Assembly: GCA_030062745.1 (NCBI GenBank)
Contig: CP099841.1
Location: forward strand, 3,348,001-3,412,000
Source: Capitulum mitella
Taxonomy: Eukaryota; Arthropoda; Thecostraca; Pollicipedomorpha; Pollicipedidae
Reading direction: 5' to 3'
DNA length: 64,000 nucleotides
Position numbers and translations under genes: made by a program. This document shows, one piece after another, positions 6,778 to 61,600 of the stretch. The notes under the pieces are model-generated. The model ran no database searches, was not told where the DNA came from, and saw only the letters and a list, made by a program, of their open reading frames with translations. The number at the start of each line of letters is the position of its first letter. Positions within the stretch are counted from its first letter, which is position 1.

Positions 6778-6833
6778 ACCTTTGGTATGGAGCTTTCCAT
6801 ACCAAAGGTTGTTGGTATGGGACCCCATACCAA
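6778..6833. repeat. two adjacent perfect hairpins
   Basis: ACCTTTGGTATGG (6778-6790) pairs with CCATACCAAAGGT (6797-6809) across a 6-base loop. Immediately after, TTGGTATGGG pairs with CCCATACCAA across a 2-base spacer (6812-6833). Both stems are built on the same word GGTATGG, so they probably arose by inverted duplication of one motif. Confidence 0.7.
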
Positions 6834-13660: not shown

Positions 13661-13690
13661 GCTCGGAAGGGGAACCCGTCATGAGACCGC

Positions 13691-13888
13691 GGCTGGGGGA
13701 GCACGTTAGCGAGCTCCTCGGGCAGCGCAGTCTTGGACCACAACCAGCCAGCTCACGGCTGGGGGAGCACGCTAGCGTGCTCCTCGGGCAGCGCAGTCTT
13801 GGACCACAACCAGCCAGCTCACGGCTGGGGGAGCACGCTAGCGTGCTCCTCAGGTAGCGCAGTCTTGGACCACAACCAGCCAGCTCAT
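13691..13888 (+). repeat. 66-bp tandem repeat, three copies
   Basis: GGCTGGGGGAG starts at 13691, 13757 and 13823, and GCAGTCTTGG at 13727, 13793 and 13859, giving an exact 66-base period. Units two and three carry a perfect 20-base palindrome, GGAGCACGCTAGCGTGCTCC (13764-13783 and 13830-13849). Unit one has two mismatches in it. Confidence 0.95.
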
Positions 13889-16723
13889 ACAGGAAACTTG
13901 CATCAACACAGCGTTCGGAGTCGCGGCGGCCCTGGCCAAAAGCGCGGTGGGAGGTGCGGCAGTAAAGCGCCGCGGAGTGCCCGGCAATTGCAGGCAGCGG
14001 ATTCCAGCGAGCAGCCTCGGCACGCTGTGGGGGCCGGACAGTTAACCGGAGACGGCGGTTGGCACGGCCTGGGACGGCGTTCCCGGCCAAGAGGGTCTTG
14101 CGCCGCGCCGCGCCCCGAGGGGAGGAGCTCGACAGAAACGGGTTCATTAGATTTGTGGAATTTACGCTCTTAATGAAGAGCGAATTTTGGCAGCGTTATG
14201 TGACGCACTCATTCGCAAGTCTGGAGCGACTCGTACTATAACGCCTAAAATGACATTTTCATTTCAAAGTCTGTTGTCCAAAGTTCGCGATCGGCCAAAC
14301 GTTGATGTAGTCTGCATTGAGAGTCATTCTGCATCTCATTTCTTTCTCTACAAAGAGCGAATACTTTAATCCTTTATTGTGAACACTCAGTCAAACCATA
14401 TCGTTCTCTTGTGAATGTTTTATCGTCGAGTGAGAGGTATGAGACTGACCCTGTTTTTCCGACGAAGTCATTTGTCAGTCATCACTGCCCAGTCATCTTT
14501 CATAGGATCGTTCCGAAGCCGACCATGTTTCTTCGGTGAGCCTGCCCCATCCTCACCAAGAATCGGCCCGCTAAATCCGCCACTTTGCATCTTAGCAAAA
14601 CGAAAACGACAACATACCGACAGCTAAAGGTTCAAAAGAAAACTCCCGTCTTCAGTGCAGCAAGGTATCAGAGAGAGAGCAGATTTTTTTCTGAGCTGTC
14701 TTGAACAGAACCGATAGAGCGTGGTTTTGGCAGTCATTCGATAAATCGGTAACCTGGCATAGCAACCACTGTCCCGGTGCTGCCCATCGACCAGTACGTA
14801 CCGCAGTGCTCGATAATGATCATTCAGCCTGAGACTCGGCCTGTCAGCGCACAGCGCGCAGTGAGCCAAGCGTCGTCTCTCTCCGCACGATCGGGTCCCT
14901 CGGAGACCCAGGGGTATCCGCCCTCCGCGCGTGCCTCCTTTCATTGGCCCCGAACTGTCAACAGCAGAGGATTCCCCCGATGGAGTGCAATTAGTCCCCC
15001 GCCCGGCCACCGGGGAGGTGCGTACGGAAGAGGCGGTCCCAGAGGAGCTCGGCCGGGCCGCGGGAAGCCCTGGTGACGACAGGCCGAAAGGTGCGCACAG
15101 GTGCGTTAGATTGATCGGCGGCGAGCCGCCTCGCGGGTCCGGCTCCCGGCGAGCAGCCGAATATACCGCCATCTCCCCGGCGACGACCAGGGCCGGGCTC
15201 GCCGGGAGGAACTCCGCCGTCGGAGCGCCCTCATGGTCCGAACAGGCCCGCTGCGGTTCGCCGCGGCCGGGCTGGGGACTGCGGGCCGTCCGGCGACCTT
15301 TGAGAGGCGGCCCCGCTCGGTCAGGACTCGAGACGAGGGATGGCCAGCAGGATCGGCGAGACCGCCCTCCGTCAGCGGACGCTGTTCTGGCGGCGGGTCG
15401 TCCGAATGGCTGACGACATTGGAAATGGCCCCGGCTCGAGCGGTGCAGGCTCTGATAAACAAATGACCCTTTGATAATGGCGGTCCAAGGCGGATGACGC
15501 GGCAGCATTAGAAACGATGCATCCATCAAAGAAGTCTGATGGGCGGCCGCTTAGGACGGCCATGCTGAAAATGCTTATTCATCGCTCCCTTGACCTCGGG
15601 TACATACCAGTTCTGGAGTGATAATGCCCGAGATATGACTGCTGTGTTGGAGGAAATATCGGAAGTTCCCAGAAACATGTCTTTCGTCGCACTAAGTTCA
15701 CATCACACAAATGAAATCATTCGTCCAATCTATTTCCAAATAGACGGCGAGATTTCTGCAGCTTTCACTTTGCACAAATGAAAACTGGTGAGAACTAGCA
15801 TCATGTTAGAAGCGTCCATCAAATCAAGTTTAAAAAAAACAAAATAATATAATTCCGAGGAAGTCTGGGTTTCGCCTGCCGCTTATTTCCAGTGGCGTTA
15901 TTTATGGATTCCATTGCTGTGATGAATTCTGTCGCAGTCTTTCCACCATACCATTTGTGACACCTCGATTTAACTTAGTGGCCGTCACAAACTTCGCATG
16001 TAACCCGAAGGAATGCTGCATACAGTGACTCCTTTCAGTCGTTCTTAGAGTAGCGCAACGACTCACTGCAGAAGGAGAGAAATGGGATGAAAAACGATAA
16101 AATAGTCAGGAAAGACCGATTAGTAACGAATCTGGAACCAAAGTACGAATACCTATACCTGGAGAAGAAAAACGGACGGGGACATTTGTGGGAGGGACGA
16201 CAAAGAAAACGCCTCCTGAAAGCTGTCTCCTCAGTTTTGCATTGACTCGATGACGACGCACCTCGCCTCCATTGCCCAGCTGTTCATCGTCACTCCACTA
16301 ATGTGCGATTCAGCCTCACAAAACACGCCAACAGCTGTTAGACGGCAGGGGCTGCCTCATCGAACGGTTCGGCTCGCTGGGCAGATCACCTCACTGCTAA
16401 TGAAACGACGGCTATCCAATTAAACCTGCCGCCACCCAAACCGCCAGCCTTGGCGGGACGTGGCCTTGCCTCGCCTTTGGAGCGATTATCTGACTCAGCA
16501 CCCAGGCTGTCGTTCGTGTAGCCACGTTAGCGCTCAGGTGGCCGTCTCCGCTCCCAGACAGATAAGCCGGTTCGCTCAGATACAAACCGACCCTCTCAAT
16601 TCCCAGCCGATCCGCTCAGCTTCCTGACGGTGCGCCCAGCTCCCAACCGGCGGGTTCAACCCCCCCCCAGCCCCCAGCCTGCCACCTCAGCTCCGCTCGG
16701 TCGGCGGCCGGCACGGTACTCAC
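13889..16723. other. no gene recognised
   Basis: Would be the intron (or intergenic DNA) downstream of the SLC16-like exon on the minus strand. 14880-15420 is GC- and CpG-rich with long open frames on both strands (up to 301 codons) of low-complexity composition and no recognised domain. No second SLC16 exon was identified. Confidence 0.4.
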
Positions 16724-17501
16724 CGAGCTCCGGTTGCTGGACGTGACGGAACTCTAGCAGCGTCAGCCGCAGCAAGAGACCGCTGGCCGCTTGCAGACCG
16801 CCCAGCGAGACGGCGGCCAGCAGCGCGCAGACGGCCACCACCCAGCCCCAGCCGGCCTCCGGGTAGTAGTGCAGGTAGATGGTCGGGAAGCGCTTGGCGT
16901 TGTTGGAGGTGGCGCTGTGGTCGCCGCTCGCCTCCTTCAGGCTGGCCTCCTCCGGCTGCACGTCGGCCGCCGACGCCTTCGAGTCGGCCCGGCCCGGCGG
17001 CAGCGTGCAGCTGGAGAGCGTGCTGCCCTGGGCGTCGAGTGGACCGCGGTGGCCGGCCGACGGCGAGCCGGCCGCCTCGCCGCCGTCCGTCTCGCCGCAC
17101 GAGTCCACCGTCTGGAAGCGCTTGAAGAACTTGAGTCCGGGCCGGTTGCGCATCGAGTCGGGCACGCGCGTGTAGGTGAAGATCTGCTCGAGGTCGGGCA
17201 TGGCCGGCGCCGCGCCGCCCTCCTGTGAGCCCATCTGGAACATGGAGCGCGTCTTGCCCACCTTGTCCAGCACGACGCGCGCCCTGTTGAGTGGCGTGGC
17301 CGGTGCCGCCGCCGCTGACGCTGCCGGTGCCGCTGCCGGTGCCGCCGCCGGAGACGGAGGTTTCCGCGGCGTCAGCCCGCCGTTCGTTGCCGGCAGCGGC
17401 TCGCGCCGGCACGTGCACACGTCGGCGGCGGGGGTCGCCGCGGCAGCCGGCGCCGCCAGCGGCCAGGAGAGGGTCCGCGACAAACGAGAGGCGTCGAACA
17501 T
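16724..17501 (-). CDS. first coding exon of an SLC16-like (monocarboxylate transporter) gene, partial
   Basis: An ATG at 17501 opens 259 codons that end in phase 1 at a strong donor, CTCG|GTGAGTACC (exon end 16724). Residues 1-90 are low-complexity Ala/Pro. Residues about 95-210 are hydrophilic and less biased, including PDLEQIFTYTRVPDSM and NRPGLKFFKRFQ. Near residue 217 comes YYPEAGWGWVV followed by a hydrophobic stretch. SLC16 proteins carry [DE]G[GS][WF][GA]W just before membrane segment 1; here it reads EAGWGW, one residue off. If this is SLC16, it would be a proton-coupled or facilitative carrier with the N-terminus in the cytosol. Later helices must come from further exons, which I could not find. 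The exon could instead belong to another membrane protein. Codon use is extremely GC-rich, with shadow frames open on the other frames and strand. Confidence 0.55.
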
Positions 17502-29697: not shown

Positions 29698-31004
29698 CGG
29701 CACCCGGAAGCCCGACCCATTATCGGAGACAGAGCGGCACTTGGTGGGCCGCAACCAGGCCCGATTAGTGCCGTAACGACGGCGGCAATACGCCACAATG
29801 GCCCGCGGCGGCGGCGGCCCGCGCCGCCCAGCCCGACCGGAGGCAGACTGTCCAGGTCAGCGGCGGGAGGGGCGCTGTCAGGTCGGCAGTCAGGGGAGGG
29901 GGCAGGACGGACTGTGCAGGTCAGCAGTCAGGGGGCAGACTGTACAAGTCAGCAGTCCGGGTCAGAATGGGTCAGACAGGCACAGTGTGCTCACCGGCGG
30001 CGACCGGGGAAGGGGAAGGCAGGGACGAGCAAGCACAGGTTGGGGAGCTGTTCGTGGGCTTTAGCGACTGCATGGTTACATGGCGTCCCCATGGCCGTGG
30101 GTCGACCGGGACGGAGAGCGCGGAAGTGGGAACAATCGGTTCTCGTTAGCGGGAAGGAGTGGAGGTGGCCGGGGGGATCGATGACAGAGGCTGAGTCAGG
30201 AATGTGGTTGTCGTTTTTTCACGCGTTGCATCCCCAAAGGTCCGGCTTGTCGGTTGTCTGAGGCGAAATGTTCAGACACGGTACGCAAAAGTTTATCGAT
30301 GGTGTCTGAAGTCGGGAGAACTTAACAGTTGGCAAAGACGGAAGAAAAACCTCATTTTCGTCATGTAATGACATCGATGGCGATAACTAAAGATTTTAAA
30401 ACAAATGTTAATTGGTTGTTTTCATATAAGAGATGTTTAAAAAACACTCAGAGGTCGTTCTAATCCAGAGTAAAACTAGACTCTGACCCAGCTCTAAGGT
30501 AGCGCCATCATCCCTTGTACGCACGATGGTGCTATTGAACCTTGTTTTAATCAGATTTCATCGGCTCTAAATCCACAGTAAACACAATGTATCGTGTCAC
30601 GGAAATTTCATGTCCTCGTTGGTGCCAGCCAAGTCCGCATGTTTATATAGCGTACCTTTCCAACGTTCTTGTTTGCAGGTACGGTATCAGTTTAATTAAT
30701 CGAGCCGGATTTACGTTACTTTACGGAAGTGTGACCGGCAGCGGCGCAGAAAGCACCGCGCGCCTGGGTGTTGCAACTTTCCCGGCAGCCAGGGGCGTAG
30801 GCAAGGCGGGAGAGGGGACAACACGTGCATGACCCTCTTTGTGACTGAGAACTGAACCTGTTTTACGTATCAAAAATGGGAGCAGATAAACATTTCCGGA
30901 ACTCGAAAATAAAGCGGTCGATATCCGAGGAGTGTTCAGTTTTGAGGAGGGGTCGGTTGGTCCTGGCCCTCTCCTTGGCAAAATCCTAACTGCGCTCCTG
31001 CCGC

Positions 31005-31308
31005 CAGCTCACTGTTCCCGTCATGCCACACCCTGCGGCGGCCACACACAACGGTCGGCGATCCTGACAACACCGTCCGCCAGCTCACTGTTCCCGCCAT
31101 GCCACACCCTGCGGCGGCCGCACACAACGGTCGGCGATCCTGGCAACACCGGCCGCCAGCTCACTGTTCCCGTCATGCCACACCCTGCGGCGGCCACACA
31201 CAACGGTCGGCGATCCTGACAACACCGGCCGCCAGCTCACTGTTCCCGCCATGCCACACCCTGCGGCGGCCACACACAACGGTCGGCGATCCTGGCAACA
31301 CCGGCCGC
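31005..31308 (+). repeat. 76-bp minisatellite, four copies
   Basis: CAGCTCACTGTTCCCG begins at 31005, 31081, 31157 and 31233, an exact 76-base period. Units are nearly identical and differ at a few positions (CGTCATG versus CGCCATG, CCTGACAAC versus CCTGGCAAC, one CCGTCCGC versus CCGGCCGC). The high identity points to recent expansion. Confidence 0.97.
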
Positions 31309-31369
31309 CGGGGAACAAGCAAACTCTCGGCTGGCCGGCGCCGCCGTCTATTCAGGTAGCCGAGAACCA

Positions 31370-31625
31370 GGGTTCACAGGCAGCAGTCAGCCGGGAACGC
31401 GTGCTCACAGGCAGCAGAGGCCGCCGGGGATGTGGGTTCACAGGCAGCGGTCAGACGGGAACGCATGCTCACAGGCAGCAGAGACAGCCGGGGACGTGGG
31501 TTCACAGACAACAGAGGCAGCCGGGGACATGGGCTCATAGGCAGCAGAGGCCGCCGGGGACGTGGGTTCACAGGCAGCGGAGGCCGCCGGGGACGTGGGT
31601 TCACAGGCAGCACAGGCCGCCGTCC
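31370..31625 (+). repeat. about 33-36-bp minisatellite, seven to eight degenerate copies
   Basis: Built on CACAGGCAGCAGAGGCCGCC followed by GGGGACGTGGGTT. Some units are the variant CAGGCAGCGGTCAGACGGGAACGCATGCT. It starts about 60 bases after the 76-bp array. The open frame through it is low-complexity. Confidence 0.85.
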
Positions 31626-31739
31626 CGGCCTCCGAGCCAGCCCTCCGACCGAAACCGGTCGGACCGCCGCAGGCTGTCGGGGCCTCTCACGGCGGCTCCG
31701 CTGACCTGAGCCAGCCTCGGGGCGTTCGGAGAGGACACT

Positions 31740-32125
31740 GCGCTAGAGGCCTGACGTGGCGCCGTGTAAGGGCCTGATGCAGTGTGGTGTAGAGGCCTGT
31801 CGTACCGACGAGAAGAGGCCTGATGTGACGCTGTGTGGAGGCCTGACTTGGCGCGGTGTAGGGGCCTGGTGTGGCGCCGTGTAGATGCTTGATTTGGCGC
31901 TGAGTAGAGGCCTGATGCGGTACGGTGTAGAGACCTGATGTGGTGCGGTGTGGAGACCTGATGGTGGCGTGATGAAGAGGTCTGATGCAGCTCTGTGTAA
32001 ATGCCTGATTTGGTGCTGTGTAGAGGTCTGGTGTGGTGCTGTGTAGAGACCTGATGTGGCGCGATGTAGAGGCCTGATGTGGCGTGATGTAGAGGTATGA
32101 TGTGGCGCTATGTAGAGGCCTGTGC
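31740..32125 (+). repeat. about 23-24-bp minisatellite, some sixteen degenerate copies
   Basis: Variants of GAGGCCTGATGTGGCGCTGT plus GTA repeat head to tail, with GATGTGG/GATGCGG and CGCGGTG/CGCTGTG alternatives. It is the third distinct array in 1.1 kb. Confidence 0.9.
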
Positions 32126-42500: not shown

Positions 42501-45500
42501 TGGACCTGCGCGCCGGGGGACCAGGTCACGCCGCCGCCGTAGGCAAGACGGTCAGTGGCGGCCGCACAGCGCAGAGGCCCGAGTCCGCGAGGGTCTCCAG
42601 CCACTGCACGGTGCTGGGCCAAATCAGCCCCAGTTCTAGCCGCTACTGACGGACGACAACGGACGACGCATTCCTCTCAATTCCGAATTTGGCAAGGGCG
42701 CTTCGGTACTAGCATTGCTGCGTGGTTAGATGAAATATTTCGAGGCTTCTTGCTCGGATAACGAACTTCATGAGGAATTATGGAAAGTTTTCTCGACCAA
42801 GCGAATGCGCCAATAGCGACATAGCGACATCGTCAGACGGCATATGGTGATTCACGTAAGCGCATGTTACAACTGAAATGTGCACCGTACGAAACAAAGA
42901 ACACCATGCAAACAAGTCTGACATACAAAGACATGCAAACATAATCCAGTGGACCAGCAGCAAATCGGTGCACGGCTAGTCCGCCGTCGTGAAACAAGGT
43001 GTCCCAGGTTTTCGTGTCAATGGCCACTAAAACCTGTGTTGTAAATGCGTGCTTCACTAAATTACGATTTGTAGTTTCTCTGCGCACACCGCACAAACGG
43101 GCCATGTTTTCGGAAAATTCGACATACTCACATCTAAAACAAAGCAACAAAAGGGCCACATCCATTTCCTTGCCCCAATATCCGGCACTCCAGGCGTTGT
43201 TCAGAATATTACAGGCGGCCTCAGCTTAGTCATCTCCAGCCTCGCAGCTGCTAGGCACGTGACGCCATTTTGTTTTATTTTTAATTTATATTTCTTCTTA
43301 CGCACGTGACGTGGTGCGTCCAGTTTCTCTAAGCGGGCCAGATCGGACATGTCCGGCACGGATCGGGGGACTGAGGACTTCAGTGATCCTGGGAATGAAT
43401 GATCCCCCTCGGCGGTACTGTCCCTTCTCAGCGCTATCAGGTCCAGATCGAACGCTGCCGCGGGGGAGGGTTCCCGGCCCGCGCGCACCGCCGCCGGCGC
43501 CGGAAGCAGGGCGTTTCCGGCGGCGATGAGCGGCGCGTAAGGCCGGCTCTATCGGCTGACGAACTCCTCCAATCATCTCAGCCGAGACCGTTTACGGCCA
43601 CTCCTTGACGAAAAGTGGACCCGGACGGTGGGCCGCCCCGCTGCCAGAGCGTGTACCAAGAACTCAGGGGCCGTGCAGAGATGGTACAGCTCAGTCGCTG
43701 GTGTATGTTGGTGTAAGCATCACCAATGCAGTTCGCTTATACCTACAAGCAACCTAACATTATGGGATCAGAATTCAAAAGCCACGCGTGCAAAACACCG
43801 CATGCTTCGGAAAAGCATTGGCCTGTACATGACTGAATTACAACCAGGACGGTCATTCCGCTGACATTGCCAAATGTTCACCATTTTTATTTGACGAAAG
43901 CCGAAAGAAAGGACAGCGAGAAGCAAAGTCGGCTCCACGGCTAAGGGCAAGACATCAGGGTCTGGAACAAACAAATACGGCGCAATAACACGGAGCCCCG
44001 TCGCGGTCTTACCAGCCACGTGGTCCACATCAGAGATCCCAATACCGCGGAGCAGCTGGCGCGCCAGAACGTTAAAAACTTGCCAGTTCTCCGACAAACA
44101 GCCGCCTCCAGCCTCAACGGCCTATCAAGAGGCTCCTCTCAATCCCCAGCGGTGTGGCGCCCTCCCGCCTGCAGCGTTAGCTGGCGGTAATCGAGCTCGA
44201 CTGTAAACAGCTCCCAGACGCCGCCCGTCGGCGCGCGGCTGCCGCCGGCACAGGGGAGGCCGATATCAACGACCCAGCGCATCCAATTGAGCCGCCACCC
44301 GCCGCTTCCCATCCCCGCCATCCGGACTCGGCACGACTTGGCGGCGGCGGCGGCGGCGGCGGCGGGCTCCTCCGCTTTGGCCCCGGGGGCACGCATCGGG
44401 CGCCGCGGTGAGCCGTGACGCCGGGGACCGACTGGCGGCCTGCCGGCGCCCCGGGCGTCGGGTGTTGACCGCCGCCGGCCGTGATCGATGTCGCATCCAT
44501 TACTCGAGTGCCGCCAGGTCCGTAATCGATTGGTGCTGACGGCAAGCCGGCGCGTCGGCAGCCGAGACCAGCGTCCCGGCCGGCTCGGGAGGGCAGCCCC
44601 CACCGCGGCCGTCGGCGGCAGCGGCGGGCCCGCCTCGACCGCGGTCTGACGCAAAGCGACCCGTCGCGACCCCGCGCCGGAGTTCAGCGGGTCGGCTCAC
44701 GGCGAACCTGGTGACCCGCGTTCAAGGATTTAATAGAACCAGGACGCTCGGCAACGGCGGCGGTCGACCACAAAACCCCCGCGCTCACTTTGGCGAGGTT
44801 ACAGTAGTCCAGCCAAATCCCCTGCCCGTGATATCACCAAAATAACCCCGGACTCTACATGAAGACCAATGACCAGGATGACAAATAATTATACCTACGT
44901 GGCCTTAAAATAACGTATGACTCCACACTGTTCGGGACAAAACACAATCCTAAGTTTCTTTCCTCCCGATTCCATACAACACAAAGCGTCACGAACAGCT
45001 CAATTTTCCTTACATACTTAAATACGGAAAATGACGACAATCTCCAGACAGGCTCCAGCACAAGGCTCAAGTTCCAATCATAGATATCCCCATTTTTTTC
45101 GAAAGCACGCATCAAAATATCATCTTCCCTCGCTGCCCACCCGACATCTGACGGTCGCCAACGCAACTTCAGGTTCTCTCACCGGAAGTCCGGCGGCGGT
45201 TTGAGCATGTCGACGGTGGTGACCTTGAGCGAGATGGTCTTCAGCTCGGCCAGCAGGTACAGGTCCATGAAATACTCTTGACAGAACAGACAGGCCCCCT
45301 TTCGCCGGCCATCGATGGTCGAAGCCTGCCGGGCACAGAGAACACCGTCAGAACGGTTCCGAAGCCACAAAAGCATTTGCAGACAGGCATGACCATTTTG
45401 TCCGGACAAAAACTGTCCAGCCGGTGGCTTCTCTTGAAATGCGCCTGGATTCAGGTCATACATCCGAAAAAATGTCAATTCTCACAAACCGGCTCGGGTC

Positions 45501-48500: not shown

Positions 48501-51371
48501 GGGCATGTCAGACGTAGAGGTCAGTAACGGCTGTGTTTCCAGTCGCCAATCTAAACGCGCGGCTTCGAAATCTCCGCCGATGTCGACAAACGTCCGACAC
48601 TGTGCGGGTCCCGTAAAGCCAGCCACTCCAGCCACTGAGCCAAGTCATCAGCGGCAACACATAAACGAGGAGATGACGCAATGCGGCTTCCAGGAGACGT
48701 AAACGAGAGAGAAAGGGAGGGTAAAGAAGTGATGAAACGACGTCTGACTCCCGGAACCGCCAGTTCATGCCACGTACGAACGGAAGCCAGTTTCTATGAC
48801 GGATTTCTCCTCCAATATTTGAAATCCAGTACGTTTTCTGCCAATGGTTCATCACTTCCCGGGAATCCATCTACCCCTACACCAAACGTGGAGCCTGTGG
48901 CCTTTTGTCGAACAGCAGGGTGAGACCAAAGAGAGGCGCGGCGATTAAGGCGCTCTGGTCACGATTTCGGAGGCCACTGTTTCGACAGAGGCCTCGCAGG
49001 CGTTGCCAACACTGACGGGACGACGGACCTGCATGGGCCGGAGCGAGGATTCGGACAGTGTCCGACCCCGTAACTGGCCGAGACATTGACGGTATCGCTG
49101 TCACTGTGTGGCTCGGACAGCCGTCCTAAGCGCACAGTTCGTCAGCTGCCCCCACTGATAGCCACACACTTGTGGCAGAGTAGTACAATAGCACTGCCTG
49201 CAGGCAGCAGGTCTAACACAGCAACCAATGCAATGAAGACAAAAATGTCTCCATCAAAGCAAACTTGAATGGGTCCTCAGAGAAAACAATGTGATGATGC
49301 CACACACAATGCAAGTGTGTCAATGGTCCCACATAATGCAAAACTCAAATTCATACACCAATTACCCTTGCCAAAATGTGATGGCACCACACCAGTGTAA
49401 ACTGCAACACATCACATTTAAAAGCTCATCTGTTTCAAGTAATTTATAATACATTCTAATCATGGCAAAGATTGTGCAATGCAATACAACAATGATGCCA
49501 CTGAAATCCTGATAGCCTGGGCACTGGGCACATTGCTGCAGAACCACAGGAATGGCATTACCACCACTGGCTGACCAGCTGCAGTATTCAAAGGTACAAA
49601 GGAATTGCAAAAAAAATCATTACTTTGCCCTATCCCCACTGACTGACCATACATCTCTTAGTAGTCAATGACATCAGGTTGTATCAATAACACTAAACAA
49701 AAGATCATCAACATGGTTAGATAAAGGAAGAAACCAAAGAGAAAACAAACAATGGTGATCACCAGGTTATGTAAGCATAACAGCTTACATGATCACATAA
49801 TGGCTGATAACATAATGAATTGATATTGATAACATACCAAAGATATAGAACAATGAAGACCAAAATGTGGTTATGTGAGTTCAAAGGACAGCCATAAAGC
49901 TAGTGCCTTCAGTGAGATATCTGCCATATGAAGAACACCTGAAGAAATTGAACCTTCCAAGCATGTTGCACCAATGTGCAAGAGGATATGACCCTAGTAT
50001 ATCAGGTACTGACAGGAAAATTCAAAGGGGATTTCTCATGCTCTCTGACTATGGCTCCTGAGCAGCAATGTACTAAAGGACACCCTCCTAAAACAATAAA
50101 AACCACAAACAAACAGGCACCCAAGACAGCTGTATTTCTCAACAAGACTGATCAATTCTTGGAGGAACAGTCTCCCTAGACATTTTGTTTCAGCACAAAC
50201 AGTCTCATCCTTCAAATAAAAACTGGTTGAACACTGGGCAAGCAAGAAGTAACTGATGAGATTGAAGTCAAGACAGCAACAAGACCAGAGCTGCAAGGGA
50301 TTCTAAGGGAATAAACTGAGTGAGAGCACATAGACTCATGATGAGCCTTAATGTCCTATACCAGTTATTATATTATCGTATCATATTATATTTTGTCATA
50401 GGTTTCACAGCTGCCAAGCATTGTAGCACATACTGTCATAAACACAGAAGAGATGATATTAAATCATATTATGGTGCTGTCATAGGCATCGGAATCAACA
50501 AGCATTGTAGCATGTACTGTCATAAGTGAATAAGTGATCAAGCTACTATGCATACAGGAATACTGATAAGCTCCACAGTATCATCATATGCACAGTAGCA
50601 CTGCTGTGCATGCAGGAGTGCTCCTGTAGACATACTGATATTGCTTGTCATAAGAGGGCTGCTCCAAGGTTTGCCACAGGCCTAGGAGCACTGCTGTATT
50701 TGTAGATGCACAGGCACAGAAGTGGTCATGTTGGACCACACTAAGTTGGGTTGAATCTGATCACATTAAATTTGGTTAAGTTTGGCAAAACGGTGTTATA
50801 TTTATTGCATTACTCCTTCTGATCAAAAGTTGTGCCAATAATACAATAAGATGTCACAGTCAGACATTAAGAACACTGCTCATTTTCAGATACACCTGCC
50901 AACCAAAATTTAACATAAACAAAATGTTCCTGTCATTCCTACTGAAGTTTCTCACAAATATTACACTTTGATGCTGATGCACAACAGAAACAATTCATAT
51001 CAGTTTTGTGCAGCAAATTTCACATTTTCTCCAACTCCTTTGGCTTGGACATGGAATAAATTCAAAAAAGCACAACATTTTAAAAATATTTTCATGGTAC
51101 TTCAGCATTCATTACAAAACACACTATCACATAAATATCTGTATATATACATATACCATTGTACTACATATATTATGCGGATATATGCATTACATATATA
51201 CATATATGAATAAATATATCAGTAATGGTCCTAACAATGCTCCATTGTAATAAGATCCTTCTCCACATACGTCAGAACGCAAAACAGCATTCCTTTCTTA
51301 CTCGCCTTAATGATAAGTTCGACCTCGGGAACGCTTCCGTTTTCATTTTCATTCGTCTGATCATCAGCCAT
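33515..51371 (-). CDS. chloride intracellular channel (CLIC) protein, complete, six exons
   Basis: Joined exons are 51371-51306, 45325-45183, 42505-42343, 38734-38560, 37663-37524 and 33595-33515: 768 bases, 255 residues plus stop, close to the size of insect Clic. CLIC proteins have a glutathione-S-transferase omega-like fold and move between soluble and membrane forms; metazoan members act in redox, vesicle and tube-forming processes. Residues 1-20 are an acidic leader (MADDQTNENENG). Residues about 17-115 form the thioredoxin-like N-domain, with a CLFC redox site at 34-37 and the putative membrane segment just after it. Residues about 125-255 are the all-helical C-domain, with GDTLCCFDCELMPKLQHIRV at 162-181 and SCPADQDIINHY near 213-224. 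Phases run 0, 2, 0, 1, 0. Introns 1 and 5 need GC donors. The gene is divergent from DENND4. Intron content is GC- and repeat-rich. Confidence 0.96.
34735..35125 (+). repeat. dispersed repeat, copy B (in CLIC intron 5)
   Basis: Partner of 19515-19840 in the opposite orientation, with an extra stretch of GTCAGTC/GGTCCGTC simple sequence around 34806-34836. It lies inside the last CLIC intron. A frame of about 145 codons crosses it but carries no known domain. Confidence 0.8.
37524..37663 (-). CDS. CLIC exon 5 (residues 183-229)
   Basis: Acceptor GTTTCAG|GC. Encodes KFFQDFEIP through HHMYLLDAFTQSCPADQDI to HYKLQQ. Ends in phase 0 at CAG|GCGAGTGAC, again a GC donor. A GT donor one codon later would be phase 1 and break the frame. 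Confidence 0.95.
38560..38734 (-). CDS. CLIC exon 4 (residues 125-183)
   Basis: Acceptor CTGCCCCCAG|AAA, donor GCCG|GTATGG, phase 1 out. Encodes the start of the helical C-domain with the family-diagnostic GDTLCCFDCELMPKLQ. A palindrome array lies only 32 bases upstream of its 5' end in the intron. Confidence 0.96.
38766..38890. repeat. array of palindromes in CLIC intron 3 beside the exon 4 acceptor
   Basis: At least four near-perfect palindromes built on AAATCACCA(C/G)TGGTGATTT. The outer two have CACACAAAT...ATTTGTGTG flanks (38767-38795 and about 38861-38889). One inner unit has GGCCAAAT...ATTTGGCC flanks (38795-38821). A partial unit, CACTGGTGATT, and another full one lie between. The whole block is itself roughly symmetric. 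In CLIC pre-mRNA these hairpins would fall directly upstream of the polypyrimidine tract of intron 3. It may be a small MITE-like insertion with internal amplification. Confidence 0.9.
39577..39775. repeat. CCGGACCGTCCGGACC-rich low-complexity tract
   Basis: About 200 bases dominated by CCGGACCG(T/A/C) words at 10-15 base spacing in CLIC intron 3. A decayed simple repeat, partly self-complementary. Confidence 0.75.
42343..42505 (-). CDS. CLIC exon 3 (residues 70-124)
   Basis: Acceptor GCGCAG|G, donor AGT|GTGAGTG, phase 0 out. Encodes the end of the thioredoxin-like domain including the cis-proline region TQPPILVDNG and the helix NEKIERHIMKNVPGG. Confidence 0.95.
44339..44365. repeat. (GGC)n trinucleotide run
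   Basis: Nine GGC units in CLIC intron 2 inside a CpG-dense block (about 44.1-44.7 kb). Confidence 0.9.
45183..45325 (-). CDS. CLIC exon 2 (residues 23-70)
   Basis: Acceptor CCCGGCAG|GCT, donor TTCCG|GTGAGAG, phase 2 out. Encodes ASTIDGRRKGACLFCQ, the CLFC site and the amphipathic stretch used for membrane insertion in CLIC proteins, ending KPPPDF. Confidence 0.95.
47241..47260. repeat. (GTCAC)4 pentanucleotide run
   Basis: Four exact GTCAC units in CLIC intron 1, within a CpG-dense stretch. Confidence 0.9.
49142..51176. other. CpG desert in the first part of CLIC intron 1
   Basis: Reading line by line I find no CG dinucleotide from 49142 to 50376, and only about three from there to 51176. 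Sequence on the other side of 49140 is CpG-rich. TG and CA are frequent, which is the footprint of deaminated methyl-cytosine. The desert is the part of CLIC intron 1 nearest the start codon. Confidence 0.8.
51306..51371 (-). CDS. CLIC exon 1 (residues 1-22)
   Basis: ATG at 51371 opens an acidic leader ending in VPEVELIIK, the expected entry into the first beta strand. No upstream in-frame coding is required. The exon ends in phase 0 at AAG|GCGAGTAAG, a GC donor with otherwise consensus positions. The nearest GT (one codon later, phase 1) would break the frame into exon 2. Confidence 0.93.
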
Positions 51372-52631
51372 TTTGAGGACGGCTTAATTCGTTGAAATTA
51401 CCGGTCCACGTATCAAATCGAGCCAATAATTGACCTCCCTCACGACGTATGCCACGCAAGAATCCAACTAACCGCCGCGCCCTGCGTCACCAAACAGCCA
51501 ACCAATTCGCGCCAATACTAGTCACTTTTGCCGTTGTGAACATTTTACTTGACCTTGAAAGGATGTCAGCTGATTCTGGGTCTACCAGAGAACTAGGTAG
51601 GTGTTTATAGAATATGGAAGGGCAATCAAATGAGATATATTCAGTTTGCTTCGTTTAAACTGGTAGCTCTTCTATCCTGTACGCTTGTTTATACTTTTAA
51701 GCGCGTTTCTTTGCTAACAAATTTTTCATCTCATTAAAATTTATAACATTTCTGCGAGCTCTTGTGCTTTCCAAATAACCTGTACATTCGTAATTTGTAT
51801 GGCTATATTCCAGTAACGGAGAAACTTCTGTAGAAATGAAAGGGATTCGGATTTTTAGTTTGTTTCTTTCCAGGCACTGTTATAGGGCTTTTGTTTCATG
51901 CTACCCCAAATTTGGGTGAAAGGGAAAAGGAAACGTGATTTTTACCTCGTTACTTTCCATGAACCGCGATAGGGCTTACTTTAAATGTTGCGCAAAGTAG
52001 GGAGCAATAGGGCAGCTGCCCACTTGCTTCCCTCCCGGTTCCTACGCTCCTGCTTTATTTTATTTTGAATATATTCAGCATGTTTCAAAAGATGCCTTTA
52101 ACTATCTGCCATTTACGGTTTGCATAACTGTGTACAAATTCTGAGCAAAAGCCAAAAAAAGGAAATGTTTCTTTTAATCATTACATCAAAAAGCATTGCA
52201 TTAGTCTATTATTTCTGGAGTTTTGTACTAGCAGTGGAATTCCTACTCGAATCAGCTGAGCTGTGCCTGACCTACGAGCTTGCTACGAGGCATCTGCTTG
52301 ACGCAAGGCGAGGTGCGTGTTGTCTCATACTCACTGCGAGTGTGTTCCCGTGCGTCCGAAGCAGGTAAGATGGGAAGGTTGTGTAGGTCGGTACGAGGGA
52401 TAGAATATTTGTTAATGCGATAGAACAGGACGTTAGATTTGGAGTAGATCTGGTTTTGATTAGACACGAGTTGACTCTGCATAATGGTTACCCCATGTGG
52501 GCACAAGCGGCCTTCGACTGGGTTACGGTCGTAGCCATTCCAGCTTGGTTCCCATTAGGACAGGGTGAATTATAGGCTCCTTTGTTCTAACTGGCTCGTT
52601 TTTAGATCCCTCTTGGTTACTCAAGTGTACG
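51372..52631. promoter_or_regulatory. CpG-retaining upstream region between CLIC and DENND4, candidate shared promoter
   Basis: The only CpG-normal stretch between two CpG deserts, lying just 5' of the CLIC ATG and upstream of DENND4. It would hold the CLIC 5' UTR and probably the DENND4 start site. A strong donor, GAAGCAG|GTAAGATG (exon end 52364), on the plus strand is a plausible end for a non-coding DENND4 first exon. I see no convincing TATA box. Start sites are not determined by the sequence alone. Confidence 0.5.
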
Positions 52632-55362
52632 TAGGTGTCTTTTCATATCTTCAGACACCAAGGATTTGTATAGTTGGACAGTGCATGCAGTAGTATTTCA
52701 GACAAAATATTGAAAAACAGGGTAGCAGAAACTGGTATTGGCAGGGCATTATATTTTGTGATACAGATGCAATTTATTAAGTTTCAGATTTGGAAGAAAA
52801 AAGACTGTGTGTGGTTTGCACATCATCCTGTTCCAAGAAACATCAACATTTAGCAGAGCATCTGTTATTTAATGCTTTTGTGGTTTCCATGTAGCATTGA
52901 CAAATTACCACATCAAAGACACTCAAATAACTTGTGCTTGAGCTTCAGGTTTGCTTTTGTTTGGTGGCCCATACCAATCCAAACTGCTGTTGTGAAAGCA
53001 GATGTAAAGTAAAGACTGCATGAAACTTCTTTCTTGAGCATATAGTTTGTGCAAATTAGGGTAGGGACCAAAACTGGAAACCAGATGCAACTTTGGTAGG
53101 GTCTGTATCCCCAAATTTTCATAGATCTAAATGTGAAATGCCAGGAAAGAATTTGTTTGAAATCTGATGCTGACTTCACACTAATTTTTGGAAATATTCA
53201 GTCATGGTTGAGATGCAAATGACAAAAAATCAGTTAGCTTAGTATGAGCCCACAGGTCTCAAGGATTGTACATGTTGACATGGCCAATGCTGGTCCATTC
53301 TGATCTTTTGATGCATTTATTTTTCAGTCATTGTTAACCATTTATTAGTATATATGGTTTATTTATTATTAGCCATTGATCTGCAGGATTTGTCTCATAG
53401 CAGAAAGTCATTTGTCAATGTATTCACAGCACAAGAATTGTGTGCATTGCTTGTGCACAGTAAGCACTAGTTCTGCAGATAATGGGATGCTGGACATTTA
53501 TCTTTATATTTTGTAAGCATCTTATCTTTGTTTTGTGTGTATGTGCTCAACTTAACAAACTGATTTGCTTCTAACTCTGAGTCTGCCTCACTATGCTGGC
53601 TGCCTTTTATCCTACCTATAGATGAATGCTCTAGTTTTTTTCCATTAGTTGTAATGCTTGGATGTTAAAAATGTTTGATACTTGGTAGTCATGTTAGCAG
53701 TAGCAGTCTCAGCTTGTGTTCAGAGTAAGTTTGTGTTCTTTCAGGTTTCTTCTGTTCATTGAATGTCCAGGCATTTTGAATGGAACTATGCTATGTACAT
53801 GACAACTTTGGTTTCAGTGCTTTAAAACAGCACTTTCCAGAACAAATGTGGAAAGGGAGAAAATGGCCCTTTAAAGGGCACTATGCATGGTGATTTTCAT
53901 TAAAGCTAGACCATTTTCTGTTTGAATTTCTATGTGGTTTGCAAGGAAGAATACAAAATACACATGTATAGCACTAGAGCATGAGTCTGATTATGGCCAT
54001 GCTTGTTCTTCCAGAATGATGTTGATGTTGTAATAGCATTCTTGATGCTACTCTTAATAAAGCCAAAAGGAAGTTTGGTAGTTATATGTGCCTTGAGGCA
54101 TGGAGACATTTGAAAAAAAATCAGGCAGAATCCCTCTGAGATTGACCATAATTTCAACCATCCACTTCAAGTATTGGAATGACAAAAGGGAGTGTTGAAT
54201 AGAAAGCAGAAGGCTGTATAGCTAATAGATTACATAATTCAGCTGCATGTCATTCAGTGTTCATTGCCATCATGTGGTATCCATATTGTTCTCATGTTGT
54301 TTGTATTACTCATGTTCTGATGTCCAAAGCACACTTGAAAGGGAAATGATTCTTGAAAAGCTCACCAGATCCTGCTTAAATCTTGCTGTGCTTCTAGACT
54401 CACTAAAAGTATCAGTCACTGTTCATAGTAACCATATTGTCATTTTTTGACATGACTTGTTGGGCATCAAGCCTGCCACAAAAACATAACTGTGTTGAAT
54501 GTATTGTTGACCATACAGCCAGGTGGAGCACCTTGCAGGAGGAGCAGTGGGAGCAATTGCCATCAAGCTTGATGAAAAATTTAGTGGCACATCCTAATGG
54601 TGATTTAGGAAAAAAATAGATTCAGGAGTGCTGTTTCCCCTGACTGGCCTCAGTGCTAAATGCTGCCTCTGCCAGCAGACATTGGCACTTGTAGTTTAAG
54701 TGTTGTGTGAAAAGAACCAAATCTAAATGATACAAAATGATCAGTGGTGAATGTCAAACTTCTGAGTAAAGCAGCCATCCTTGTGCTATCTCCCATCCGC
54801 TGACTCTGTCACTGCTGCACATGAGAGACTAGGTGCTGGTCAGTCTTTTATCACAGTACTAAAAGTATACCTGAATGTGTACCAGCATTTGGCATTATAG
54901 CATAAATTAACCAGAAATATCAAAAATATTTTCCAGCAGGGCTGATAAAACAAAAAAAAGTAAGGAATGATGATTTTCATTGAGCCTTTGAGAAAAGCAG
55001 TATGACTTTAATGAGACAGTGAGAGTGTGAGTGAAAATGGCAGGACATGAGTAAAAATTGGCTAACTAATAATTATTGTCCCTCATGAAAACCTGGACCA
55101 GCAGCAGTGGCTATTAAGGGGTCTGATCTTGTACCCAAGCGAGCTGAAGCATGCTTCATTTTTATCTTTTTTACTAAGTCATATGACACTAAAGGGTTTT
55201 CTGTGAGCAGTCTGTGCCACATACATCACATGAGTAACCAACCTGCTGATCATCTGAACATGCTGCCACAGCCTAAGGCTTGAAGTTGCAATGCTGATAG
55301 TTGGGAAAGGGAGTTCTTGATGATGGCTACACAAACATACTACCATGTTATTCAACTTCCAG
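52632..55362. other. CpG desert upstream of the DENND4 start exon, probable 5' UTR intron
   Basis: No CG from 52632 to 54797, then just one more (about 55140) before the exon. Composition is AT-richer with many TG/CA steps. If DENND4 has a non-coding exon ending at 52364, this stretch is its first intron, ending at the acceptor TTCAACTTCCAG (55351-55362). No coding frame recognised inside. Confidence 0.7.
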
Positions 55363-55375
55363 GGTGCTTGCTGTT

Positions 55376-55390
55376 ATGGAGCAGCCCTGA
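55376..55390 (+). promoter_or_regulatory. minimal upstream ORF in the DENND4 leader
   Basis: ATG-GAG-CAG-CCC-TGA sits 31 bases before the main ATG, inside the exon that begins after the acceptor at 55362. Such a short uORF could lower translation of the main frame. The effect is inference. Confidence 0.45.
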
Positions 55391-55421
55391 TCAACGGTCA
55401 GCGAGCGCGTGAAGAGCCGCC

Positions 55422-55626
55422 ATGGAGTCCCAGACGGACAGGCAGGTGGCCGACTACTTCGTCCACTGCGGCCTGCCCGACAAGCTGGAGGAGCTGGACG
55501 CCCCGCTCGAGGACTTCCCGATGAAGCCGTCTCACAACTATGCTCCGATCACGGACGTGACCGTCATCTTCCCCGCCGAGGAGCCCGTGCCGGCCGGCTT
55601 CCGGTGCATCGAGAAGACGCCCACTG
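55422..55626 (+). CDS. DENND4 coding exon 1 (residues 1-69)
   Basis: ATG at 55422 follows an acceptor-led leader (exon start 55363). Encodes [19 protein letters not shown] and the first MABP strand [14 protein letters not shown]. Donor ACTG|GTGAGTC, phase 1. The intron that follows carries a 19-base direct repeat (ACCAGCCGAGAGACACGG at about 55653 and 55722). Confidence 0.95.
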
Positions 55627-58600
55627 GTGAGTCTGTCGACCTGGGCGCGGCCACCAGCCGAGAGACACGGGCGCCGAATGACCCTGCAGTCGGTGCGCCC
55701 CTAAGCCCCAATAACCAACCAACCAGCCGAGAGACACGGTCGCTGTGGGGCAGTCTTTCCACCGGAGTCGCTTTCTCGGCCTAGCTTTGAAGTAAAATCT
55801 TTTTCGTCTATTTTTGTGGTACATGTGATTCAAGTACGTGTTGTTTGGAAGCTGTACCGCAGTATTTTTATGTTGATTTTTTTGTTTATTTATTTAACTC
55901 TTCGTCTGATGCATGTCTCTCCGTGACGCCGGCCATCCCCCAAATCCGCGCCCAGCCTCTCGTAATTTCGGCGTGCCGATAGCGCCCGCCTGAGACGCCG
56001 CCGCCGTCCGCAGGCCTGTCGGCGGACCTGAACCACGGCAGCCTGCGCAGCCCCGAGGTGCTGCTCTGCTACAAACGGGGCTGGGACAAGCCGCCGCTGG
56101 TCGACATCGGGTGAGTGGGGCGCGGCCGAGGCGGCTCGGCGCCGGTCGGCGGCAGCCGTTCCGCCGCGATAATCAACATCCGGGGCGTCTGTCAGTGCCG
56201 CGGCCGCTTTTTCCGCGTCCGTGACGTGTTTTGAGTCATCTGATTAACCCGGGGAGGAGGCGTCAGACGACCAGATTTCCTTCGTCGTGGTACTCCGTAA
56301 CCATACGGGGTAGTGCCGTCAGTTTTTTCAGTTTACCTCTTTAACAGCAGTTAGACACATGATGGAAAAGGTCAGGGTCATCCAAGGTCGGATCGAAAAT
56401 GACATAACGTCTATCGTGTTTTCGTATTTAGGGTTTTTTCTAATTTGCTAGTTATTCCCCGTTAGTCTCGTGACGTCTTACCCTTCGAAATAGCCAACAG
56501 TATGCAGCATGTGCTCTGTCATAAGAGGTCTTTGTAGAAACACTCCAGCACACACACACTGTCATGTGGAAGGTTAATTTAATTGCACTTTGTCAAAGTG
56601 AATACACATTTATGCCACACAGCCAGTTGTGACAGTCATTTGAAGATTTTTCTGGCGCATACACGAATATTGAATATGGACGTTTTGTAGAGTTTTGTAG
56701 TTTGTGTATGGAATGTAATTCTTTGATTAGGCGCTCTGTTAACCTGACATATTTTACTTCTGAGTATCACATAAGCTAGTGTGACTTGTGCCACCATTTC
56801 ATCAGGTAAATGTGTATTGGTATCTCATGCATACGTTTGAAAGTTTTCCGGCCTTGAGATATTTTGCGGACATGTGCTGAGATCCCAGTAGATTGCAGGT
56901 TACCTTCGTTTTGTGTCGGATTCTAAGCCGACCAGGTTGGGTGTTCCATCGCCTTGGCAGTGCTTTGCCCTTGATGGGCACCACCTTTCCGAGGTGACGC
57001 AGTGACCTGCCCAGGTCAACGGGGGTTAAATACGACAAGGGGATAGCATGTATTCGATCAGGACACAGGTGGATATCTGGATACCTTTAATCTTTCGTTT
57101 GTACAAAAATAGCGGCATTCTCCCTAGTGGTCATGTGTCGGCTATTGACGTGACCCGTGACCTGATAAATGATATTAAGTTCCAATGTATGACGAAGCCA
57201 GAGTCGTACGATAAAGGGCAATTGGTTGCCGTTTGAATCAGCCGAATCGGTTCATTGTTAGCGGCGTTTTTGAGCAGGGGTGTCCGGCATCCCTCCCCCA
57301 TCCTGTCAATCCCATCAAGAAAAGGTGGTGACAAACCCCATCACCTGGCGTGTCAATGTCTGCTTACGTGCGGATGATGTCCTACAGTAGCCCTCGCTGC
57401 TTTATGATGGATGCTACTCAGGCGTGCTGTCTGATTTCCTGTGCTGTCCATGTTTTGCGCGTTTGCAATGGTTGCTGGGCATCGGCACCCGCGTCAGAAA
57501 ATCGATTGGCATGACGTCTGAAGGCGAATTGCAACTCTGTTTTGGTGGATTTAATGTGTGGTTTGGGCTGGGCTGCAAGGAAATTGAATAATTGGTAGTG
57601 CGTTGTAGTTTTGAAACAATGGTTTGCTTGCTCACAAAAATTCATTTTGCCCAGAATAATGTAGTGGAAAGTATGTGTGTGATTCAATGACAGTGGACCG
57701 TTTTGTTTTTCACGACAATTTACTTATTGCTGTTATATTCGTGCGCGCTTACAAATGTGTTCACAAACATCCTGGCTGGCCTTGCAACTGATATGCCCTT
57801 GTGGTTCTTGGCTTCCCGTGTTGTTGTCCTCGCATTGGGACAGCTTTTGTTGTGTCGTGAATGATTCACGTGCCCCTTAATTCCGTCCGAATTAGCCTGG
57901 GCCATGTAACAGCTAGCTGTCCAAGCCAAGAACCTTCCTAGCCAGCGAGCGGGATGACGCACACTGCCTTGTTCGCATTCCCCCCCCCCCTTCCCCGGCG
58001 ACCGCGCCGGCCGCTGACGCCCGCACTTTGCCTCTAGGGTGCTGTACGACGGCAAGGAGTACGTCATGCCGGACTCGCAGGTGGTGGAGTTCACGCCGGC
58101 CGGCCGCATCGCCAACGTCAACAACAGCACGGCGCGCACCTACATCACGTACCGGCGCGCCGCCGACTCGTCCCCCTGCAACGAGCTGGTGGTCACCGAC
58201 ATCTGCGTCATCGTGCTCACCAAGGACGAGGTTGGCGGCCGGGTCAGGGTCGGGGGATAGGTCAGCAGCGGGATCAGGAGCGAGGGGTAACAAGAGGTCA
58301 GCGCTCGGATGAAGGGACAGAGTTGTGCAGGTTGGGATAACGGCGTAGATTACGGGGGATGTGGGTGGCGAGGCTGTTGGACTCGTTCACGAAGGACCGG
58401 GTCGGGACGGAGTGCATTTCATGTATCGTGCGAACTGGGTGACGATGCCTGGACGATTCTGGTGCCGGAGAGGTAGGGTTGGGTTACATAACTTATATCC
58501 GCTTTGGACAAAGTGAAGGTGACATTGAGGTTTTCCCTGTTTGGGGATCTTACATGGGACAGGCATCAGGACTTTGCAATCTTGCAGACTACTTGTGAAT

Positions 58601-61600
58601 TGGCGAGGTTGCGTTTCTCCAGGGTGGATCGTCCGTGAGCACGAAGTTTGACTGTCTGAGTCTCCACCATCGCGGCTTGTCAGAACGAAATGGTCATCCC
58701 TACCATATTGCCAGCCTTACCTGCACGAAATGGCCCACTTGTGTTTTGTGACGTATGGGGTGCTTTGTATTCTGGGGCTATCTTACTCCTCGTCTGGGTG
58801 ACCCAGAGTAGGATTCGTAGTTGGACTTTTGGAAATGACGTTTACGTTTTTCTTTCTGGTTAGTCTGATGACGTGGGCGTTTGTAGCGGATCTGCATTCC
58901 TTCAGTTTGGTATCTTTTTTTTTTTACTTTTGTTTACTGTTCCAGGTGCCTCCGCACACGTACTGCATCATTCCCAAGACTCTAAACAAAGGAATGGTGG
59001 GCTCCGATGTGTACATTTGCTACAAAAAGTCGATGCGACAACCAACGAAAGTGGTGTACAAGCCCGGTAAGATCTTCATTTCCAATGATTTAAGTGCTTT
59101 GTTGGCTCAGAAATGTGTTGTCTGCCTAAATGCGCCAGTGAATGCGATAATGCTACTTTGGTGATGTGTGCATCTGCATAAGTTCAGGTTCTTCGTTTTT
59201 GTGATACCGTTTATTTGTGTTGTTATGTATGAGTAAGAATGATGACATGTTTTTGAGAACAGCCGTAATCGTCATGTAATATAAAATTTGGCAGTTTTAC
59301 TCTTTATCATTGTTTGTGTTTCTTTCACAGGCATTGTGCCTTTAATATCGATTTTCCCACCACAAGCTCACCTGTCTGCTGAGAAGTGTAAAACACCAGG
59401 CCCTGTGTCTGAAATGCTGGACACTCTAGAAACGTTCCAAGTTCCTCTCCCCGCGAACACCAGCAGAGCCCCGCGTCCTGTCCCTTTTTACCGGCCGGCA
59501 TTGTCTTTCCCCGCTGTCCGCCGTGTACGTCATGTGACCGTCCCGATGTCCACCGTCTCTACCCTCCCCGCCGCCCCCGTGTGACGCTGTCCAAGCGTCC
59601 AGCCCACCTTGTTCCCAGCTGCCGCCCTCTGACCACCCGTGACCTGGCTTAACAGGCCTGCTGGGTCGGTTCCCGCTGGAGGACCGGCCCTACTTCCCGC
59701 TGCCGGAGTCGGTGCCGCTCTTCTGTCTGCCGATGGGCGCCACCGTCGAGTGCTGGCCGGCGCAGGCCGCCACGCCCAAGCCCGTCTTCTCGACGTTCGT
59801 CTTCACGGTGGCGGACGGGGCTGAGAAGGTGGGTGGCGCGCGCAGGCGGCCGCTGCGCTCCCGGGGAGTGACTCCCTGTCGGTAGCGGTCGGCGAGGTGG
59901 TGGCGTTCGGGATGTGTCCGGCACGTTTGGCAGGTGGTCGAGGCTAGGCTTTTTTCGTGTTCTTCACGTAAGCATTATGTTGGACGGGAGTCACGTGGTG
60001 TGCTGTTTTTTTGTGATTGTTGGGCCCCATCCCCATTTTTGCACTTCAGGTCAGATGTCAGATTGAGGCTGTATTGTGTTTTTCTGAATATAAGCATTGG
60101 GTGTCGTCGCTATCACCGTGGGTTTTAGCTCCACCTGTCTTTCAGCAGTAGTCAGATTGTTTTGATATGTTTTTATATCGTTATGTTCGTGCCAATGCCG
60201 CACGTTTCCCGTGTTGATAATTGTTTGGAGTTTTGTCTTTTAGTGTGCTGTGAAGGCTGTAATCCTGATATGTTGTTGCAGCCTTTTTGGTTTTGTTTTT
60301 TGTGTTCTGTTCCATATTGGCATTATGTGTAAACCTGACCAGGAGGTTTTCCAGACAAGCATAGTAACGATGTGTGTCATTCAGCCTCCTCTCCGCCCCT
60401 GTCCGCCGCGGTCAATAACCGTCGGCGGCTCCGGCCGGCGCCAGGTGTACGGCAGCTCGATCACCTTCTACGAGCGATACCCGGAGAGCCAACTGACGGA
60501 GCAGCAGCGGCTCCAGCTGGGCATCGACACCCACCACCCGTCCGAGATCTCGGTCAACACCAACAGGTCGATCGGCGTGCTCTCGCACTGGCCGTTCTTC
60601 GACACGTTCGAGAAGTTCCTGCAGTTCCTGCATCAGACGGCCATCTCCGGCCGGCCCACCTCCGTGCCGCTGGAGAGGTCAGCTACGCTCGGTTGGAGGG
60701 GGGGTAGTCGGACGGCCGTGTGGAGTGTAGGGGTCCGAGGGTCTAATCTTTTAGTGCCGTGCCAACTGGAGCTGACGTGTGTAAAGCAGCATTGGAGAAA
60801 GTGAACTGGTTTGTCATGGGCACCTGGTGCATTAGTGCTTTGTGGCGGTAAAAAGACGCGCTTCCCATGATGTGCCTGATTTTTTTTTTTAGATTCCTGT
60901 GATGCATCATTGTTTCGTGGCATTTCCGTTGCCTTTTTAAGCTTATAATTGTGATGTTGACCACACATGTTTCGTTTGTGCAGTACTCAGAACACTATCA
61001 CGACATTGAGACGTGCGTATGACCATTATCGTCTGAGTTTCGTCGACCTACGTTGTGCCGTGGCGCCATTGGACCATCTCTCATTTCCTGATCTCTTCAG
61101 TGATCCGCCGCCCCCAGTACTCGGAATCTCAGTCGAACGTAGCCGCCGTCTGATCCGCCGACCACGCACCACCGGGCTCTGCCACTCAGCGCGGTCTAAC
61201 GCGGCCCGCCTGCGGCCCGGCAGGTACATCAGCCACGTGCTGCTGGAGGTGCCGTTCCCGTCTGTGGCGCGGCCGTACGTGCACGTGCAGCTGGACGGCG
61301 GCGCGCCGATCGTGGTGGCGCAGCCCTACTTCTCGCCGCTGCCGCAGAGCGGCGCCAGCTTCTGCAAGCTGCTCAAGAACCTGGGCCCCGACAACAGCCT
61401 GCTGGTGCTGCTGTTCGCGCTGACGGAGCAGAAGCTGCTGCTGCACAGCCTCCGGCCCGACGTGCTCACCAGAGTGGCCGAGGCCGTCTCCATGGTAACC
61501 GCCGACGCCTGGCGTGCGGGCGGCATGCGAGACGCTTTGTTGGTTAGCTCTGGTTTCTTCATCGTTCAGATTTGCGCAGTGTTGCTTTTATCTTCAGCAG

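Follow-up and report, generated by a model that had tools for sequence, protein, structure and literature searches.

We analyzed a 64,000-nucleotide stretch of the Capitulum mitella genome (assembly GCA_030062745.1, contig CP099841.1, positions 3,348,001 to 3,412,000 of the forward strand; hereafter the window), in which two CpG deserts flank a CpG-retaining interval between a leftward gene for a CLIC protein and a rightward DENND4-like gene. An earlier reading of the same letters (the original prediction) had proposed that this interval is a shared promoter, unmethylated in the germline, between two gene starts that were methylated for a long time. We found that the deserts are marked by CpG-specific decay to TG and CA that is independent of GC content.

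The CLIC gene is anchored by its first two exons, whose joined peptide aligns without gaps to CG10997-PA (2yv7), the Drosophila CLIC (query residues 4-70 to chain residues 10-76, E 1.4e-33). Its intron 1, 51305-45326 on the minus strand, appears to be of the non-canonical GC-AG type: the GC donor at 51305 and the AG acceptor at 45326 are preferred because the alignment then stays whole, and an alternative GT donor at 51323 is in frame yet costs six aligned residues. A GT donor at 51301 was rejected, as it breaks the reading frame. For the rightward gene, tentatively named DENND4, exon 2 gave no Pfam match, and a DENN domain exon farther downstream is taken to belong to the same gene. A putative 5′ untranslated region (UTR) exon was placed by the sole GTRAG motif on the plus strand of 51401-52750, at 52365 (the scan covered GTRAG donors only), and intron 1 would span 52365-55362. 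The left desert had been predicted at the start of CLIC intron 1 and the right one in the probable first intron of DENND4. The former holds for the depleted domain as a whole, which begins 38 bp into the intron and covers the first 2.1 kb of its 6.0 kb (the first third; the other 3.8 kb are CpG-normal), and does not hold for the CG-free core. The latter agrees with a domain that starts 271 bp into the predicted DENND4 intron and ends 31 bp into exon 2, the first exon being itself a prediction.

A scan of CG positions in the window placed the sites flanking the left CG-free stretch at 49140 and 50377 and those flanking the right one at 52630 and 54798, so that the predicted absence of CG from 49142-50376 and 52632-54797 was correct to the base. 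After these two, the third-longest CG gap of the window is 406 bp. Base composition predicts 49.8 CG dinucleotides in the left stretch and 76.2 in the right, each of which has none, and in 1000 shuffles of each the count stayed at or above 31 and 51, respectively. The observed/expected ratio (o/e) of CpG is 1.01 in the whole window, 1.13 at 40.0-49.1 kb and 0.93-0.95 between the deserts, where CG was retained as predicted. Once stray CpGs are allowed, the depleted domains extend beyond their CG-free cores, with residual CpGs at 50377, 50490, 50791 and 51178 in the left domain and at 54798 and 55140 in the right. The left domain also contains, at 50380-50525, two diverged direct copies of 62-63 bp that are 76% identical and start 83 bp apart.

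Domain limits were taken from a two-state segmentation applied to the window and 100 kb on each side (264 kb without a break), which yielded 13 depleted segments totalling 14,238 bp. Five of them exceed 1 kb, and three of these five show near-total loss (o/e at most 0.10): the left and right domains and one in the MKK7 gene (Table 1). Among overlapping 500-bp windows, CpG o/e is most often near 1.0, and 21 windows form a small peak of their own at 0.0-0.1; in the bulk of the 264 kb, CpG o/e is about 1 and CG/(TG+CA) is 0.53. No desert was detected in five random 10-kb stretches on five contigs (o/e 0.84-1.08, longest CG gap 209 bp), nor in 20 kb to the right (longest CG gap 203 bp, lowest 500-bp o/e 0.36).

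Table 1. Features discussed in the text. All coordinates are relative to the window, including those outside 1-64,000; TG+CA, sum of the two dinucleotides.
Feature	Position	Strand	Counts and o/e	Basis or remark
Left CpG-depleted domain	49143-51267	-	4 CG, 415 TG+CA; o/e CG 0.05, TG 1.72, CA 1.58
CpG-retaining interval	51268-52635	.		contains the CLIC start and the predicted DENND4 start
Right CpG-depleted domain	52636-55393	+	2 CG, 510 TG+CA; o/e CG 0.02, TG 1.53, CA 1.59
CLIC exon 1, coding part	51306-51371 (ATG 51371)	-		alignment to CG10997-PA (2yv7)
CLIC exon 2 (at least)	45182-45325	-		PF22441 CLIC-like_N, E 1e-06
Putative 5′ UTR exon, DENND4	52300-52364 (start arbitrary)	+		donor GT 52365
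DENND4 exon 2	55363-55625 (ATG 55422)	+		acceptor AG 55361-55362, read from sequence
DENN domain exon, taken as same gene	61222-61497	+		PF02141, E 4.4e-18
MKK7 CpG-depleted domain	95045-98095 (contig 3443045-3446095)		11 CG, 545 TG+CA	MKK7/MAP2K7 intron 1
Weaker CpG-depleted segment	8707-10582		17 CG; o/e CG 0.22, TG and CA 1.58
Weaker CpG-depleted segment	150958-152508		o/e CG 0.35

AT-rich introns or a low-GC block might hold few CpGs by chance or composition, and the GC content of the deserts (38-40%, against 51% in the window) is consistent with such an explanation. The original prediction had proposed allowing for GC content when CpG o/e is compared. Among 102 500-bp windows with a GC content of 0.34-0.43, drawn from the 264 kb after exclusion of the five segments of at least 1 kb, the longest CG gap was 307 bp and CpG o/e was 0.95 (s.d. 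0.21, minimum 0.56). The interval between the deserts (51179-52630) is also AT-rich, with 42% GC, and yet has o/e values of 0.93 for CG, 0.99 for TG and 1.05 for CA. Within the deserts, CG alone is depleted: the reverse dinucleotide GpC stands at 1.16-1.36 and CC, TC, AC and GG at 0.81-1.03, and it is TG and CA that are raised, to 1.46-1.89 over cores and full domains. AT-richness as the cause was ruled out by the GC-matched control, and we leave chance or composition virtually no probability.

The kind of loss was checked by a one-parameter reversion, in which k sites, half TG and half CA, were turned back until CG o/e reached 1.00. This required 92 sites in the left domain (49142-51178), 124 in the right (52632-55394) and 111 in the MKK7 domain (95251-98000), against only 6 in the interval between the deserts. 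After reversion, TG/CA stood at 1.20/1.24 on the left and 1.16/1.11 on the right, close to the 1.12/1.15 of the window, and the three domains together had TG of 1.16-1.20, CA of 1.06-1.24 and a GC content of 0.42-0.43. Loss confined to the CpG context and present on both strands is the pattern that deamination of methylated CpG yields. In a two-way model, in which TG and CA give rise to CG at rate v and CG decays at rate 2m, and which assumes symmetry and an equilibrium approached from above, the pooled CG/(TG+CA) of the three domains (17/1470) gives an m/v of about 43 or more, for domains that were chosen as extreme. Single domains gave 25, 52 and 128 (lower 95% limits 14, 20 and 35), and the two weaker segments 11 and 7.

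A residual ratio that implies loss at about 40 times the back rate could also suit a different process specific to CpG, for example selection that removes CpG from early introns or a deaminase acting on transcribed DNA. A transcription-linked deaminase would, however, be expected to hit C in every context on one strand; CC, TC and AC remain at 0.81-1.02, and TG and CA are up on both strands. We assign such processes very little probability. Strand skew was computed for the three domains: the coding strand has more G than C and more T than A in all of them. The skew thus has opposite signs in the two deserts, which is consistent with transcription diverging from the interval that separates them.

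The third domain of near-total loss lies in a gene identified as MKK7/MAP2K7, a later exon of which matches MKK7 structures (E 3.1e-27). One edge of the domain falls within exon 1, 8 bp from its donor, and the other end lies 160 bp short of exon 2. Exon 1 joins exon 2 in frame by phase; it has no Pfam match and may correspond to the MKK7 docking region. This desert contains a 256-bp repeat; a copy of it that is 75% identical lies in DNA of normal CpG content on a different contig. At the six CG sites of the outside copy, the desert copy has CA three times and TG, TA and AG once each, and C>T plus G>A differences between the two number 20, against 12 in the opposite direction. In this one repeat pair, CpG state seems to depend on location and not on sequence.

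The same repeat, being present on another contig, could be taken to mean that the deserts are each a transposable element poor in CpG, or that methylation targeted to such elements spread from insertions. A decayed frame in the left desert (49879-50176) would point the same way, as it may resemble the reverse transcriptase tail of retrotransposons without long terminal repeats; its part 49879-50058 has no Pfam match. However, the outside copy has CpGs at sites where the desert copy has none (one pair), domain edges track exon 1 in both CLIC and MKK7, and the deserts show no match to each other by blastn against a local sequence sample. A single shared repeat was rejected as the cause on this last ground, and transposable elements in general are, in our judgment, a very unlikely origin of the deserts.

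Exons give a different picture from the deserts. Twelve exon pieces from DENND4 and CLIC together contain 100 synonymous CpGs (those across codon boundaries), where 96.7 are expected, and have 83 NCG codons to 2 NCA codons. CLIC exon 2 keeps its CpGs (4 observed and 5.2 expected at codon boundaries), as do DENND4 exon 2 (13 and 12.7; NCG 8, NCA 0) and the DENN domain exon (15 and 12.4). As germline methylation would have removed both codon-boundary CpGs and NCG codons, their retention argues that these exons were spared. GC content at third codon positions is very high, 0.66-0.98 over 13 exon pieces and 0.94 in DENND4 exon 2, and could mask part of a CpG loss in exons.

Such third positions might oppose decay in genes methylated over their whole bodies, as in termites, with exons and later introns keeping CpG through selection or GC-biased conversion. 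In the termite Zootermopsis, introns are considerably methylated along genes and CpG depletion tracks methylation (PMC5111047); methylated genes with unmethylated promoters have also been described there (PMC5111047). The present locus is similar in its intronic trace and its predicted unmethylated promoter. Two small depleted patches downstream and a mild TG/CA excess in DENND4 at 55-64 kb (up to 1.42/1.49, with CG o/e of 0.75-1.07) would also fit methylation of whole gene bodies. In contrast, methylation in Zootermopsis spans exons and introns and continues past gene ends (PMC5111047), and near-total loss here stops within ~3 kb. The CLIC gene from 37 to 49 kb, which is mostly intron, has kb-window CpG o/e values of 0.99-1.24, and the exon counts above likewise oppose this explanation, which we regard as unlikely.

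We consider it highly probable that the 5′ part of intron 1 was methylated in the germline over a long time, on both sides of an unmethylated divergent promoter. In the ancestral germline, CpGs would have been heavily methylated from about exon 1 to ~3 kb downstream in both CLIC and DENND4, and deamination of methylated cytosines to T, on the two strands alike, would have converted CG to TG or CA until hardly any CG was left. The interval between the genes would have been unmethylated as their shared promoter and so have kept its CpGs, and exon 2 and most downstream DNA would likewise have been unmethylated. Our guess is that chromatin immediately past an active start recruited the methylation. 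The domains lie just downstream of the start in CLIC, DENND4 and MKK7, with edges at 38, 271 (predicted exon) and -8 bp from the exon 1 donor; in two of these three genes, DENND4 and MKK7, the first exon was chosen with the desert in view. Gene anatomy suggests that the interval of ~1.4 kb serves as the unmethylated shared divergent promoter. A search of a phage collection with the sequence of this interval gave no match. What the original prediction had said of the locus is borne out in the CpG decay and the undepleted interval, and extended to a third gene; methylation as the cause of the decay is what we infer. As the desert cores have no CpG left, bisulfite cannot read methylation there.

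A vertebrate CpG-island promoter keeps CpG between CpG-depleted flanks, and the interval between CLIC and DENND4 resembles it in this respect. Unlike in vertebrates, however, the remaining genome sample is undepleted (o/e about 1 in the 264 kb and 0.84-1.08 in the five 10-kb stretches), and the flanks rather than the island are the exception. Among arthropods, Nasonia has 11.9% of its exonic and 0.7% of its intronic CpGs methylated, with a strong 5′ bias; methylated intronic ones lie near exon junctions, and beyond 2 kb methylation is below the UTR level (PMC3794928). In Daphnia, methylation peaks at exons 2-4 and is near zero in introns (PMC6097596). In both, the 5′ UTR is low and only some genes are methylated (PMC3794928, PMC6097596). 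The trace described here is similar in that it begins just after the gene start, falls along the gene and occurs in some genes. The expectation, stated with the original prediction, that arthropod methylation is concentrated in gene bodies downstream of the start is right as to position; exons are its usual place in these species, and here the depletion is in introns. In the copepod Eurytemora, a crustacean like C. mitella, CpG o/e has also been interpreted as reflecting earlier methylation of gene bodies (PMC11706791), but its depletion is in coding sequence, with a mean of 0.5 over genes (PMC11706791), whereas the coding sequence tested here is undepleted and the loss is local to introns. 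The pattern is nearest to 5′-biased gene methylation and lacks the exon enrichment expected of it in the DENND4 and CLIC exons, and is hence a variant.

According to a survey of arthropods, exon methylation exceeds background in all tested species but one, and two crustaceans show little difference between exons and introns, gene methylation being inferred to have been lost there (PMC7343188). A survey of ecdysozoan DNA methyltransferases (DNMTs) did not identify DNMT3 in the copepod orders and mentions neither 'barnacle' nor 'Cirripedia' (PMC8821070), and a barnacle genome paper mentions neither 'methylation' nor 'CpG' (PMC11331182). Among the papers listed by our literature search, which covered few subscription papers, there was no methylome or DNMT study of barnacles.

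Several observations weigh against germline methylation of intron 1 as we have described it. The sparing of exons runs counter to Nasonia and Daphnia, where exons are the methylated part (PMC3794928, PMC6097596). The DENND4 first exon was picked partly for lying in the CpG-retaining interval, and that of MKK7 was sought at the desert end, which makes the third case a non-blind test. Kb-window values at 55-64 kb of DENND4, given above, and a short depleted patch at 56495-56831 (4 CG) indicate that mild CpG loss may have occurred outside intron 1; another short patch, 93964-94188 (0 CG), lies in the MKK7 region. The repeat comparison is of one pair without an outgroup; at one site, moreover, CG stands in the desert copy and CA in the outside copy. 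In addition, no recognizable gene was found beside 8707-10582 or 150958-152508, that is, beside two of the five segments longer than 1 kb.

Other parts of the 264 kb show how far the pattern extends. In the 100 kb to the left of the window, which holds exons that look transporter-like, there is no depleted segment of at least 1 kb, the first exons of the genes there not being fixed. The same is true beside a gene at 79.7-84.0 kb, whose first exon is likewise not fixed; its peptides are presumably those of a sorbitol dehydrogenase-like protein, and one piece tested gave nothing above the Pfam cut-off. A rule for all genes was not established. Elsewhere in the window, an 854-bp patch at 6751-7604 has a CpG o/e of 0.27 and CA of 1.60, with TG at only 1.13. 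An exon at 16716-17276 on the minus strand, without a Pfam match, is assumed to encode a monocarboxylate-transporter-like protein. Three adjoining tandem arrays with periods of 76, 33/66 and 23 bp occupy 31000-32122, and a further array of 66 bp is present at 13690-13887.

It is quite possible, though short of probable, that the locus reflects a lineage-specific mode of methylation, in which compact domains methylated in the germline would begin at exon 1 and fill intron 1 over its first ~2-3 kb, leaving out exon 2 and almost the whole remainder of the gene. Their placement would depend on distance from the start and not on exons, and decay within them would be at least ~40-fold faster than back mutation under the two-way model. 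Should this hold for genes in general, bare sequence could suffice to locate promoters and first introns in this lineage, and the exon-centered view of arthropod gene methylation would gain an exception in which distance from the start, and not exon identity, defines the target. The hypermutability of CpG in the germline of an invertebrate can also be approached through the near-total erasure in these domains.

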